Assembly (NCBI RefSeq): GCF_030499515.1
Contig: NZ_JASTWJ010000001.1
Location: 496,001-560,000, forward strand
Length of the DNA stretch: 64,000 bases
DNA from: Streptomyces sp. DT2A-34
GTDB lineage: Bacteria; Actinomycetota; Actinomycetes; Streptomycetales; Streptomycetaceae
Reading direction: 5' to 3'
In this document: one piece after another, positions 1 to 61,115 of the stretch
Layout: every line of letters starts with the position of its first letter
Position numbering within the stretch: position 1 is the stretch's first letter
Notes under the pieces: generated by a model
Told to the model about the DNA's origin: nothing
The model's database searches: none
Seen by the model: only the letters and a program-made list of their open reading frames with translations
Translations under genes and position numbers: made by a program

Positions 1-2522
1 AGGGCCACCAGGCCGATGCCGGACGCGTCGTCACCGCCGATGCGTACGGCGGGCCAGAACGCCTGGTGCTCGAAGGCGTAGGTGGGCAGGTCGATCGGCC
101 TGCCGCCCGGGTAGAAGGACGTCCAGTCGACGTGGGTGCCGTGGACGTGCAGGGTGGCGAGGGCGGTCAGGGCCGCGGTCGGCTCCGGCTTGTCCTTGCG
201 CAGGACCGGGATCGCGACCGCGTCGGGCTTGTCCTGGGCGACCATCGCGGACAGCACACCGTCCGGGCCGATCTCCAGGAAGGTCACGTCGGCGAGAGCC
301 TGGACGTTGTCGTGGAAGCGGACCGCGTCCCGGACGTGGTTCACCCAGTACTCGGGGTCGGTCACATCGCCGGACGTGGTGAAGGGGATCTGCGGTTCAC
401 GGAACTCGATCTCGCCGATCGCCTCCCGGAAGTCCTCCAGCATCGGGTCCATCAGTGGCGAGTGGAAGGCGTGCGACACCCTCAGCCGCTTCGACTTCCA
501 ACGCTCAGCGATCTTGAGGACTTCGGCCTCGTCACCGGAGATCACCACGGATGTCGGGCCATTGACTGCGGCGATGGAGACGCTGTCGGTCAGATGCGGC
601 AGCACTTCGGCCTCGGAGGCCATGACCGAGACCATCGCGCCACCGGCGGGCAGTTCCTGCATCAAGCTGGAACGGGCCGTGACCAACAGGCACGCGTCCT
701 CCAGGCTCAACACACCCGCGACGTGCGCCGCGGCGATCTCGCCGATGGAGTGACCGGCCAGGTGATCCGGCCTCACACCCCACGACTCCACCAGCCGGTA
801 CAGCGCCACCTGAAGCGCGAACAGAGCGGGCTGGGTGTAGCCCGTCTGGTTCAGCAGCCCCTCGTCCTCACCCCACACCACCTCACGCAGCGCAGGGTCG
901 AGGTACATCAGGGCATCGTCGAACGCCTCCGCGAACACCGGGAAACGGTCGTACAACTCCCGCCCCATACCGAGCCGCTGCGAACCCTGACCGGAGAAGA
1001 GCAGGGCGAGGGGGCGACCGGAGCGGGCCCGGCCCCGGGCCAGTTCGATGCCGTCCAGCAGCACCGCACGGTGGTCGAAGAGCGTACGGCTGGTGAGCAG
1101 CGAGTGGCCGATGTCGACGGGGTCGCCGTCGAGTTCCCGGACCCTGTCGATCTGGCCTGACAGAGCCGCCTCGGTCTTCGCGGACACCAGCCACGGCACG
1201 TCGGAGGTGGGGGCCTCGACAGCGGTTGCCGGTGCGACGGGTGCTTGTGCGACCGGCTGCTCCAGGATGACGTGCGCGTTCGTACCGCTGAGGCCGAACG
1301 ACGAGACACCGGCCCGGCGCGGGCGCCCGACGGTCGGCCAGCCGGTCGGGTCGCCGATCAGCTCGACGGCGCCCTCGCTCCAGTCGACGTGTGTCGACGG
1401 CTCGGTGACGTGCAGCGTCGGGGGGAGCACGCCGTGCTCCAGCGCCTTGACCATTTTGATGATGCCCGCGACGCCCGCGGCCGCCTGGGTGTGGCCGATG
1501 TTGGACTTCACCGACCCCAGGTAGAGCGGTACGTCGCGGTCCTGGCCGTAGGTCGCCATCAGGGCCTGCGCCTCGATGGGGTCGCCCAGTGTCGTTCCGG
1601 TGCCGTGGGCCTCGACGGCATCCACGTCGGCGGTGGACAGGCCTGCGGATGCGAGTGCCTGCCGGATGACGCGTTGCTGCGACGGACCGTTCGGCGCCGT
1701 GAGCCCGTTGGAGGCACCGTCCTGGTTGACGGCCGAGCCCTTGACGACGGCCAGGATCCGGTGACCGTTGCGGATGGCGTCGGACTCGCGCTCCAGCACC
1801 AGCAGGCCGACGCCCTCCGACCAGCCGACGCCGTCAGCACTGTCCGAGAAGGCCTTGCAGCGGCCGTCCTGCGCGAGCCCGCGCTGCCGGGAGAAGCCGA
1901 CGAAGGCGCCCGGTGTGGACATAACGGTGACACCGCCGGCGAGGGCGAGGGTGCACTCGCCGGAGCGCAGCGCCTGCATCGCCCAGTGCATCGCGACCAG
2001 CGACGACGAGCACGCCGTGTCCACGGAGACCGACGGGCCCTCGAAGCCGAACGTGTAGGACACACGGCCGGACGCCACGCTGGGCGAGGTGCCGGCGCCC
2101 TGGTGCCCCTCGGCGTCGGCCTCCAGGATCTGGGCGTAGTCGGAGTACATGACGCCGGCGAACACACCGGTCCGGCTGCCCCGCAGGGACGTCGGGTCGA
2201 TGCCGGTGCGCTCCAGGGCCTCCCAGGTCGTCTCCAGGAGCAGCCGCTGCTGTGCGTCGGTGCCGAGCGCCTCACGCGGGGACATCCCGAAGAACTCGGG
2301 GTCGAAGAGCCCGGCGTCGTGGAGGAAGCCGCCGGAGCGGGTGTACGACGTGCCGAGGTGGTCGGGGTCGGGGTGGAACAGGGTGTCCAGGTCCCAGCCT
2401 CGGTTCGTCGGGAACGGCGTGATGGCGTCGTCGCCGCTGACCACCAGGTTCCAGAGGTCCTCGGGCGAGTCGACTCCGCCGGGGTAGCGGCAGGCCATGC
2501 CGACGATGACGATCGGGTCGTC
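1..2522 (-). other. PKS module 12 (partial): KS-AT(malonyl)-start of DH
   Basis: KS Cys is 6740; AT HAFH from 7253. After the post-AT linker the sequence reads into SGIGLVAL, the position that precedes HPLLG in the DH-containing modules of this cluster, so a DH is expected. The window ends at residue 7409; KR and ACP are not visible. Confidence 0.8.
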
Positions 2523-59492: not shown

Positions 59493-61115
59493 ATGATGCC
59501 GTCCTCAGCAGCGCGCTCCGGCCCCGCCGCCTCCGGTCTCACCGCGGACGTCGCGGTGGTCGGGTGCGGCCCGGTGGGACTCGTCCTGTCCATCCTGCTG
59601 GCCCACCGCGGATGGCAGGTCGTCATCCTGGAGAAGTACGAGAACCAGTACCCGTTCCCGCGCGTGGTCGCCTTCGACGGCGAGACCGCGCGCACGTTCG
59701 CCACGGCGGGCATCGGCGCCGAGCTGATGGAACTGGGCGAGCCGCTCGGGCAGTACATGTTCCAGAACGGCGCGGGCCGGGAGCTGTTCAGCTTCGAGGC
59801 ACCGTACGAGCCCGGCCGCGACGGCTGGCCGATCGCCACCGTCATGCATCAGCCGACGTTCGAGAAGGCGCTGCGCGCGCACGTGGCCGAACTGCCGAAC
59901 GTCACCGCCCTGTTCGGGCACGAGGCGCGGCAGATCACCGACCACGGCGACCATGTCGAGATCACCGCCCCGGGCGCCGGCGGGCCGGCGGACGGGCGGG
60001 TCACGGCGTCGTACGTCGTCGGATGCGACGGCGCGAACAGCTTCGTGCGCGACGCCATGGGCGCGAAGCTGACCGACCTCGGCTTCGCGCACGACTGGCT
60101 GCTCGTCGACGTCGTGTTCCACGAGCCGCGCTCGTTCCGCCCCAACGACGTCCAGATCTGCGATCCGAACCGGCCGACCACGATCGTCGCCTCCGGCCGG
60201 GGCCACCGCCGCTGGGAGTTCATGCGGCTGCCGGGCGAGTCCGTCGAGGAGCTCAGCACCCACGAACGCATGTGGCAACTGCTCGCACCGTACGACGTGA
60301 CGCCCGAGAACGCCGATCTGACCCGCAACATCGTCTACACGTTCCAGGCGGCCCTCGCCGACAGCTGGCGGGCCGGACGGCTGCTGCTGGCCGGTGACTC
60401 GGCGCACCTGATGCCGCCGTTCGCGGGGCAGGGCATGTGCTCGGGCATCCGGGACGCGGCGAACCTGGCGTGGAAGCTGGACCTCGTGCTGCGCGGCACG
60501 GCCCGCGACACGCTGCTCGACGTGTACCAGGCGGAGCGGTCCCGGCAGGTGCGGCACACCATCGACATGTCCATCGAGGTCGGCAGGATCGTCTCCGAAC
60601 TCGACCACGCGGCCGCCGCACGCCGCGACGCCTATCTGATCGGCCTGCACTCCCGGCCCGACGCGCCGTCGCTGTCACCGTCGTGGTTCGCCCTGGAGGA
60701 CGGCGTCGTACGCCGTGACGCCTCGGGGTCGGTGGCGCCGCGGGCCGGTGAGCTGTCCCCGCAGGGCGTGGTGGCGCGCGGCACGGTCAAGGACCGCTTC
60801 GACGAGGTGGTCGGCCGGGGCTTCCAGCTGATCACGACCGTCGACCCGTACGAGACGCTGTCCGAGGGCGACCTCGACTTCCTCAAGTCGATCGGGACGC
60901 GCCTGGTCCGGGTCCTGCCGGCGGGGATCCCGCCGAAGCGGGCGCGGGATCACGAAGTGGTGGACGTGCAGCGGACGTATCTGCCCTACCTGGCGCAGAC
61001 CCGCCAGACGGGGGTGCTGGTGCGGCCGGACCACTATGTGTTCGGGTTCGCCGGGGACCGCGCCGACCTGCCGGTGCTGGTCGGTGAACTGCGCGAGCGG
61101 CTGCACCTGGTCTGA
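59493..61115 (+). CDS. FAD-dependent aromatic hydroxylase, MhpA-like, 540 aa
   Basis: A class A flavoprotein monooxygenase using NAD(P)H and O2. Visible motifs: dinucleotide-binding GCGPVG (24-29) with Glu47 at the end of the second strand, the CDG motif at 178-180, and the FAD-ribityl GD motif at 301-302 followed by AHLMPPFAGQGMCSGIRDA. The whole sequence resembles 3-(3-hydroxyphenyl)propionate hydroxylase (MhpA), which hydroxylates a meta-hydroxyphenyl ring next to its OH. In this cluster a plausible substrate is the 3-hydroxybenzoate starter or the 3-hydroxyphenyl end of the polyketide, but this is inference. An in-frame ATG at 59484 is possible, but its spacing to GGAG is wrong. It lies 96 bp after the chorismatase, on the same strand, probably in one transcript. 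Its stop is 6 bp from the stop of the convergent regulator. Confidence 0.9.
   Translation: MMPSSAARSGPAASGLTADVAVVGCGPVGLVLSILLAHRGWQVVILEKYENQYPFPRVVAFDGETARTFATAGIGAELMELGEPLGQYMFQNGAGRELFSFEAPYEPGRDGWPIATVMHQPTFEKALRAHVAELPNVTALFGHEARQITDHGDHVEITAPGAGGPADGRVTASYVVGCDGANSFVRDAMGAKLTDLGFAHDWLLVDVVFHEPRSFRPNDVQICDPNRPTTIVASGRGHRRWEFMRLPGESVEELSTHERMWQLLAPYDVTPENADLTRNIVYTFQAALADSWRAGRLLLAGDSAHLMPPFAGQGMCSGIRDAANLAWKLDLVLRGTARDTLLDVYQAERSRQVRHTIDMSIEVGRIVSELDHAAAARRDAYLIGLHSRPDAPSLSPSWFALEDGVVRRDASGSVAPRAGELSPQGVVARGTVKDRFDEVVGRGFQLITTVDPYETLSEGDLDFLKSIGTRLVRVLPAGIPPKRARDHEVVDVQRTYLPYLAQTRQTGVLVRPDHYVFGFAGDRADLPVLVGELRERLHLV

Follow-up and report, generated by a model that had tools for sequence, protein, structure and literature searches.

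A 24-module, 3-hydroxybenzoate-primed polyketide cluster in Streptomyces sp. DT2A-34, very probably for a glycosylated heptaene macrolide of the Lentzea/Saccharopolyspora kind

A 64,000-nucleotide stretch of the genome of Streptomyces sp. DT2A-34 (called here the window; contig NZ_JASTWJ010000001.1, G000:C1:496001-560000; the genome measures 10.3 Mb and is in two contigs) carries a chorismatase gene beside three genes of a modular polyketide synthase (PKS), and it raises the question of what such an aryl-primed assembly line builds, where it ends and whether its module order is as unfamiliar as an earlier note on the window had supposed. Very probably the cluster encodes a 24-module PKS whose product is a glycosylated heptaene macrolide primed with 3-hydroxybenzoate, a type reported in Lentzea and Saccharopolyspora, and the window holds the loading and polyene-building half of this PKS. 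Genes, domains, starter-enzyme class, gene order and conservation were read directly, the domain content of the modules by Pfam scans and motif reading with the DH and KR calls checked by alignment. Thirteen KS domains were counted in pksA-C and 11 in three further PKS genes (q1-q3), all on the same strand. The PKS genes that enter the window, with their modules (m1-m12), are as follows.

58104-50233, minus strand: pksA, loading module and m1
50233..54852, minus strand: pksA module 1, KS-AT(malonyl)-KR-ACP, benzylic OH
50181-22255, minus strand: pksB, m2-m7
45202..50094, minus strand: pksB module 2, KS-AT(malonyl)-DH-KR-ACP, alkene
40366..45201, minus strand: pksB module 3, KS-AT(malonyl)-DH-KR-ACP, alkene
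35431..40365, minus strand: pksB module 4, KS-AT(methylmalonyl, YASH)-DH-KR-ACP, methyl-alkene
31036..35430, minus strand: pksB module 5, KS-AT(GHSQG/VASH, perhaps ethylmalonyl)-KR-ACP, alkyl-branched OH
26944..31035, minus strand: pksB module 6, KS-AT(malonyl)-KR-ACP, OH
22258..26943, minus strand: pksB module 7, KS-AT(GHSQG/VASH, perhaps ethylmalonyl)-KR-ACP, alkyl-branched OH
From 22229 leftward past the window edge, ending at G000:C1:488419, minus strand: pksC, m8-m13
17115..22229, minus strand: pksC module 8, KS-AT(malonyl)-DH-KR-ACP, first alkene of the polyene
12306..17114, minus strand: pksC module 9, KS-AT(malonyl)-DH-KR-ACP, alkene
7485..12305, minus strand: pksC module 10, KS-AT(malonyl)-DH-KR-ACP, alkene
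2541..7484, minus strand: pksC module 11, KS-AT(malonyl)-DH-KR-ACP, alkene
1..2540, minus strand: pksC module 12, its first 846 aa (KS-AT), the remainder lying left of the window

The window contains eleven modules in full (m1-m11), and its edge cuts m12. The start of pksC is most likely the ATG at 22229, as opposed to the mechanical open reading frame (ORF) start at 22379. Pfam scans and motif reading bore out the chorismatase, the CoA-ligase loading module and the pattern of modules 1 to 12 described in the earlier note, with m12 cut. Among the AT domains of m1-m13, GHSQG is paired with VASH in m5 and m7 and with YASH in m4, and the other ten have HAFH. The same note had looked leftward for the remaining modules and the release domain, which was mistaken: pksC ends 7.6 kb left of the window without a TE, only the remainder of m12 and m13 (both DH-KR) lie on that side, and 11 of the 12 modules without any part in the window are found, like the TE, on three proteins encoded further right, at window 69343-121901 (G000 565343-617901).

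q1, same strand as pksA-C: m14-m19, with an N-terminal docking domain and without a loader
q2, same strand as pksA-C: m20-m23
q3, same strand as pksA-C: m24 and TE

The first of these modules, m14, is DH-KR and extends the polyene; m8-m14 are thus seven consecutive DH-KR modules with LDD-type KRs, the DH motif of m8 being altered, and from this run they probably specify a heptaene. Further on, m16 has the only GHSQG/YASH AT among the q1-q3 modules, the KR of m18 is truncated, the DH of m20 is without the HxxxG motif, m22 is DH-ER-KR and m23 keeps only a DH remnant. The ring-terminated triene, short polyol and polyene (tetraene to pentaene or longer) proposed in the earlier note are in this way upheld and completed by the probable heptaene, a second polyol and the TE. 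Stretches of KR were also seen to be near-identical between neighbours, m9 (~12.8-13.4 kb) with m10 (~8.0-8.5 kb) and m11 (~3.1-3.6 kb) with m12 (left of the window); in adjoining polyene modules such likeness may be a sign of recent duplication or conversion.

The nature of the starter unit can be read from the genes at the head of the line, listed here with the hydroxylase that follows them (FAD, flavin adenine dinucleotide).

58368..59396, plus strand: CH-Hyg5-type chorismatase (3-hydroxybenzoate synthase), TIGR04444 431.7 bits against a cut-off of 325
56545..58104, minus strand: CoA-ligase (CoL) domain of the pksA loading module, PF00501 300.5 bits and PF13193 68.9 bits
54901..56307, minus strand: degenerate KR and then ACP of the pksA loading module (SpnB_Rossmann, a second KR stretch, two PP-binding stretches)
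59484..61115, plus strand: FAD aromatic hydroxylase, MhpA-like, NF004829 587.8 bits against a cut-off of 390

For its CH-Hyg5 enzyme, PMC7170507 points to Gly-164, Gly-231, Cys-318 and the acid Glu-325 (matching Glu-334 of Hyg5), and a constant offset from these residues leads to G175, G242, C329 and E336 of the window chorismatase. All four are invariant across 22 aligned proteins. The best PDB matches of the chorismatase are 5ag3 (396 bits) and 5a3k (391 bits), which we take to be Hyg5, the entries themselves being labelled pteridine-dependent dioxygenase; FkbO (4bps) follows with 289 bits and has A at two of the positions aligned with the CH-Hyg5 residues. With these residues in the chorismatase, the starter unit is read as 3-hydroxybenzoate, and the aryl-primed polyene of the earlier note is supported. 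The CoL domain is 91% identical to that of S. pacificus and 78-80% to those of seven Lentzea loci. In the remainder of the loading module (KR from approximately 55225 to 56307, ACP 55101-54901) there is no ER, and the catalytic Tyr of the KR is replaced by H here, by Q in L. nigeriaca and by R in S. pacificus, while the whole domain is missing from Saccharopolyspora flava (Sacch. flava); the loading KR is judged dead from these replacements.

The same cluster architecture has been described before. A 2022 review (PMC8944477, to whose consulted sections every statement citing it here is limited) reports, from two Saccharopolyspora and two Lentzea, silent 3-hydroxybenzoate-primed polyene clusters predicted to make all-trans heptaenes, as well as a 3-hydroxybenzoate-primed pentaene cluster in ant-associated Pseudonocardia; for the Lentzea pair, whose genes were incompletely assembled, manual curation arrived at 24 modules, and amino-sugar genes are described. 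Of the features by which that class is described, the CH-Hyg5 chorismatase, the PF00501 CoA-ligase start, the 24 modules counted for the Lentzea pair, the glycosyltransferase and, for the Lentzea branch, the aminotransferase and GDP-mannose dehydratase were found here; an all-trans heptaene calls for seven active DH-KR modules in a row with B-type KRs, and m8-m14 are such a row save for the altered DH motif of m8. On this gene content the cluster is placed in the class of PMC8944477, closest to its Lentzea members. The unfamiliar order that the earlier note took for novelty does not hold up, since the class, the 3-hydroxybenzoate primer and the 24-module heptaene are in PMC8944477 and the six PKS proteins have counterparts in the L. 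nigeriaca cluster that follow one another in the same order and are oriented alike. The note had named a match to a CHARACTERISED cluster as speaking against it, and this is half present: the closest named product, flavatericin, is made by Sacch. flava, with no antifungal activity detected, and it is not amenable to mass spectrometry (PMC8944477).

The likeness to Lentzea extends over the whole cluster. The clusters of L. waywayandensis, L. xinjiangensis, L. nigeriaca and L. flava, although from another genus, have six PKS frames with sizes as here. In L. nigeriaca the 24 modules and the gene order are the same, the PKS proteins are 69-73% identical where aligned (5415 aligned positions in the best piece for pksC), and the AT motifs and reductive pattern, by motif scan and selected-module alignments, are those found here, the m4 KR nucleotide motif differing by being one residue short (GGGGLG). 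When 24 proteins from 483-626 kb were searched in 140 kb of L. nigeriaca, 19 were matched, and 20 with the GDP-mannose dehydratase (GMD, 91%) just outside, at G066:C1:533431-534480. Eighteen of the matches fall at 68-90%: the six PKS proteins, chorismatase (72%), FAD hydroxylase (79%), LAL regulator, glycosyltransferase (GT, 82%), DegT aminotransferase (90%), three P450s, ferredoxin, crotonyl-CoA carboxylase/reductase (CCR, 84%) and two ABC transporters. The 3-hydroxyacyl-CoA dehydrogenase, whose match lies where the fetched region ends, gave 61% along 338 aa; the type II thioesterase (TEII) and three small flanking ORFs were unmatched in the 140 kb stretch. Synteny was also seen with three S. 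pacificus contigs and, partly, with Sacch. flava. The latter shares the 24 modules, DH-KR in m8-m14, the degenerate m18 KR motif, the m22 ER motif and the GT-P450-ferredoxin order; on the other hand, Sacch. flava and Sacch. dendranthemae differ in a malonyl m4, YASH in m5 and a pksB split in two genes, with chorismatases 64% and 60% identical to that of the window, respectively. As to the records themselves, L. waywayandensis (G062:C25) and L. xinjiangensis (G063:C42) were inspected for KS positions, frame sizes and N-free stretches, which suggest that both clusters are intact in the records searched, as against the incompletely assembled genes of PMC8944477.

Relatives were sought by a contig scan with the chorismatase alignment, which gave 61 loci, each checked with nine query pieces. 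A CoL at least 73% identical was found in 11 of the 61: S. pacificus, an Amycolatopsis metagenome-assembled genome, S. nanshensis, Streptomyces sp. HNM0575 and seven Lentzea (indica, waywayandensis, aerocolonigenes, terrae, xinjiangensis, flava and nigeriaca). Four Saccharopolyspora loci have the chorismatase, GT and P450 without a CoL in the locus, that of Sacch. flava lying elsewhere within its cluster. The FAD hydroxylase gene, 87 bases downstream of the chorismatase, accompanies nine of the 11 close-CoL loci (the remaining two end 1.4 and 0.1 kb past the chorismatase) and was absent at E <= 1e-20 from the other 50 chorismatase loci, which reach as far as 10 kb to either side. The Sacch. 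flava copy lies beside pksA, elsewhere than the chorismatase locus. Within the genus, the chorismatase was found at E <= 1e-120 in 4 of 392 sampled genomes, the window's own included. One genome of the genus, G303, carries the stretch in two alignments of 96.2 and 97.1% DNA identity, and the cluster borders are placed at ~140 kb, G000 485990-626391, because these alignments cover that span. The dN/dS ratio (nonsynonymous to synonymous substitution rates) against G303 is 0.13-0.39 across 17 genes, and the cluster is therefore under selection. G303 is a 5.3 Mb single-contig genome with the cluster in G303:C1:75001-235000, and offers a handy second source of it. A plasmid search with pksA returned 122 records of general PKS similarity, none covering 80%, and the composition of L008:3500-10000 showed nothing notable.

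The amphotericin/nystatin and candicidin-type heptaene systems have a polyene followed by a polyol, a methyl-to-carboxyl position, a ketone, a late ER module and a TE, and their clusters carry P450/ferredoxin, GT and sugar genes. All these are common to the cluster studied here, which differs from them in its aromatic 3-hydroxybenzoate starter and in 24 modules against 18 or 21, and from amphotericin in one extra C2 unit between the ketone and the reduced position. Aromatic heptaenes of the candicidin type are 4-aminobenzoate-primed; here a chorismatase stands in the starter position. Cuevaene shares the 3-hydroxybenzoate starter and the in-cluster chorismatase, but its C21 triene acids are far smaller than the product of 24 modules with a TE (PMC3999817). 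The heptaene of Amycolatopsis albispora has CoA-ligase loading as here; it differs in its starter, 3-amino-5-hydroxybenzoate, and no ethyl-extender genes were found in its cluster (PMC8944477).

The regulator, tailoring and sugar genes lie between pksA and q3 and at the two ends of the cluster.

Window 61122..63884, minus strand: LAL-type LuxR regulator (AAA_16 and GerE; in the same place in L. nigeriaca, 68%)
G000 560165-561547, plus strand: GT
G000 561544-562605, plus strand: DegT sugar aminotransferase
G000 562602-563810, plus strand: P450
G000 563844-564038, plus strand: ferredoxin
G000 564108-565292, minus strand: P450
G000 618072-619280, minus strand: P450
G000 619277-620671, minus strand: CCR (TIGR01751 601 bits against 379)
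G000 620707-624419, plus strand: two ABC transporters
G000 624496-625545, minus strand: GMD (401 bits against a cut-off of 415)
G000 625539-626411, minus strand: TEII
G000 486634-488367, minus strand: 3-hydroxyacyl-CoA dehydrogenase

Four minus-strand ORFs at 560-564 kb had no Pfam match and were discarded, the genes there being on the plus strand. The GT is 79-82% identical to those of five Lentzea loci. DegT and GMD were present in five of the five S. pacificus and Lentzea genomes (DegT 88-92%, GMD 89-91%) and in none of four Saccharopolyspora genomes at E <= 1e-60; the same split is reported in PMC8944477, where the aminotransferase and GDP-mannose dehydratase are given for Lentzea and not for Saccharopolyspora. 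An in-cluster CCR was found in S. pacificus and four Lentzea, the Lentzea matches having one or two stops flagged (right at the gene's end in the case of L. nigeriaca), and none was found in the four Saccharopolyspora genomes at E <= 1e-60; for Sacch. flava and Sacch. dendranthemae specifically, the genomes yielded neither such an aminotransferase nor such a GDP-mannose dehydratase or CCR at that threshold. By gene content, the aminosugar genes and the CCR would separate a Streptomyces/Lentzea branch from Saccharopolyspora.

What the CCR provides for bears on modules 5 and 7, which the earlier note had read as methyl-branched alcohols. The hydroxyl stands (KR only), but the branch is perhaps ethyl in place of methyl: judged from the VASH motif and the in-cluster CCR, both modules may take ethylmalonyl-CoA. 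The AT domains of m5 and m7 have their best PDB match in 6iyt (366 bits each; 6iyr gives 325 and 327), which carries the same STVASH motif as the AT of m5 and which we take to be the ethylmalonyl-specific AT of salinomycin, a literature look-up having given no confirmation; the AT of m4, conversely, matches 6iyr best (403 bits, against 345 for 6iyt). The VASH motif went unmentioned in the two papers searched for the word. In the four Lentzea read, m4, m5, m7 and m8 are as here (YASH, VASH, VASH, and a DH motif ending in A), and in the two Saccharopolyspora read they are HAFH, YASH, VASH, and a DH motif ending in P. As a proof of ethylmalonyl, VASH is accordingly weakened: Sacch. flava and Sacch. 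dendranthemae have VASH in m7 with no CCR found, and the motif change in m5 tracks the CCR while m7 does not, which argues against VASH alone as a mark of ethylmalonyl. The two AT domains are 96% identical to each other here and 69% in L. nigeriaca, and because of this difference the pair looks like a product of recent gene conversion within pksB. In A. albispora, ethylmalonyl is predicted at modules 6 and 8, likewise two apart (PMC8944477), and this pair is an independent parallel to what is suggested for m5 and m7. In that review, ethylmalonyl extenders come up in general terms and with A. albispora, not with Lentzea, and the word 'crotonyl' is nowhere in its consulted sections.

Several points count against the heptaene macrolide proposed here, and some of them favor alternatives. 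The product is a prediction from the genes. The seventh alkene of the polyene is not certain because the m8 DH reads HxxxGxxxxA, with A at the final position in place of P. The same system with an inactive m8 DH would give a hexaene with an extra adjoining hydroxyl, and the A is indeed shared by four of four Lentzea clusters read, with P in two of two Saccharopolyspora; but this DH is otherwise intact, with its catalytic H and second motif in place, and compared with G303 it has a dN/dS of 0.17, the fourth lowest of 13 DH domains or remnants in this one genome pair. A hexaene is held to be unlikely. For the sugar, the DegT and GMD genes score under the NCBIfam equivalog cut-offs and the GT matches general GT families only, amphotericin-type sugar transfer resting on synteny and PMC8944477 without a direct comparison of Amph proteins. 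The order of the six PKS proteins is also less than fixed. By eye, one docking class joins the C-termini of A, C and q2 with the N-termini of B, q1 and q3, and a second the C-termini of B and q1 with the N-termini of C and q2; these classes are compatible with A-B-C-q1-q2-q3 but also allow A-q1-q2-B-C-q3, and with two orders fitting they were dropped as sole proof. The second order is less likely, because the polyene and the amphotericin-like end would then no longer adjoin.

That pksA-C and q1-q3 are two independent adjoining clusters, with some other release of the window's product, would agree with the distance of ~11 kb between pksA and q3, occupied by genes for the starter, regulation and tailoring, and with a protein order that docking classes alone do not fix. 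It is nevertheless very improbable: q1 is without a loading module and pksC without a TE, L. nigeriaca, Sacch. flava and G303 each carry the two halves side by side, and the joint 24 modules equal the published count (PMC8944477). A genuinely undescribed assembly line is improbable as well, if somewhat less so. No structure of a 3-hydroxybenzoate-primed polyene macrolide was found in the open-licence PMC literature, judged mostly from listings, so that this alternative may still hold for the exact product; for the class it is refuted by the module count and class description of PMC8944477 and by the whole-cluster synteny with Lentzea. Least credible of all is a line of the rapamycin/FK506 type primed with dihydroxycyclohexene carboxylate, to which the chorismatase family and the CoL-type loading module would be common. 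Such lines have a CH-FkbO/RapK chorismatase and a loading ER, whereas here the residues are those of CH-Hyg5, the chorismatase matches 5ag3 better than FkbO (396 and 289 bits), the loading module has a dead KR and no ER, and release is by a TE.

For the 24-module heptaene line, then, a route can be proposed in which the order of action of the six PKS proteins, the extender choice, the number of alkenes, the sugar, the ring size and the function are all predictions. The chorismatase would convert chorismate to 3-hydroxybenzoate, to be loaded by the CoA-ligase domain of pksA; pksA and pksB would build Ar-CH(OH)-triene-(branched polyol), and pksC with the first q1 module would add seven trans alkenes (m8-m14). 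An amphotericin-like polyol with one methyl branch, an unreduced ketone (m18) and a fully reduced position (m22) would be added by q1-q2-q3, and the TE of q3 would release the macrolactone, to be oxidized and glycosylated, by analogy with the amphotericin enzymes, by the three P450s, ferredoxin, GT, sugar aminotransferase and GDP-mannose dehydratase. The predicted product begins with an aryl end Ar-C49 OH-C48 H2 followed by C46=C47, C44=C45 and C42(Me)=C43, and continues with a first polyol, C41 OH-C40 Et-C39 OH-C37 OH-C36 Et, and the heptaene C22-C35; a second polyol, C21 OH-C19 OH-C18 Me (to COOH)-C17 OH-C15 ketone, would lead to the end, C13, C11, C9 OH-C7 CH2-C5, C3 OH-C1 lactone. If lactonization took place at C39, the ring would have 40 members. 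The MhpA-like FAD hydroxylase could possibly hydroxylate the ring of the aryl end; its PDB matches (best PnpA and polyketide oxygenases, below 100 bits) were uninformative as to substrate. Ring hydroxylation is unmentioned in the consulted sections of PMC8944477, where 'monooxygenase' occurs in the reference list only. An undescribed Streptomyces/Lentzea subtype can be put forward tentatively, with rather less than even confidence: an aminosugar heptaene macrolide of ~40 ring atoms with ethyls from m5 and m7 and an MhpA-like-hydroxylated catechol or hydroquinone aryl end.

Relative to the class as published, what is new here is the possible ethylmalonyl at m5 and m7, the dead loading KR, the conserved MhpA-like hydroxylase and the split of branches by aminosugar genes and CCR. 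The class, which PMC8944477 had pieced together from incompletely assembled Lentzea genes, is hereby supplied with complete contiguous 24-module clusters (this genome, G303 and L. nigeriaca). Two chemical predictions, the ethyl branches from m5 and m7 and the extra hydroxylation of the aryl end, are made testable. Should the product bear an amino sugar, in contrast to flavatericin, antifungal activity would be possible.

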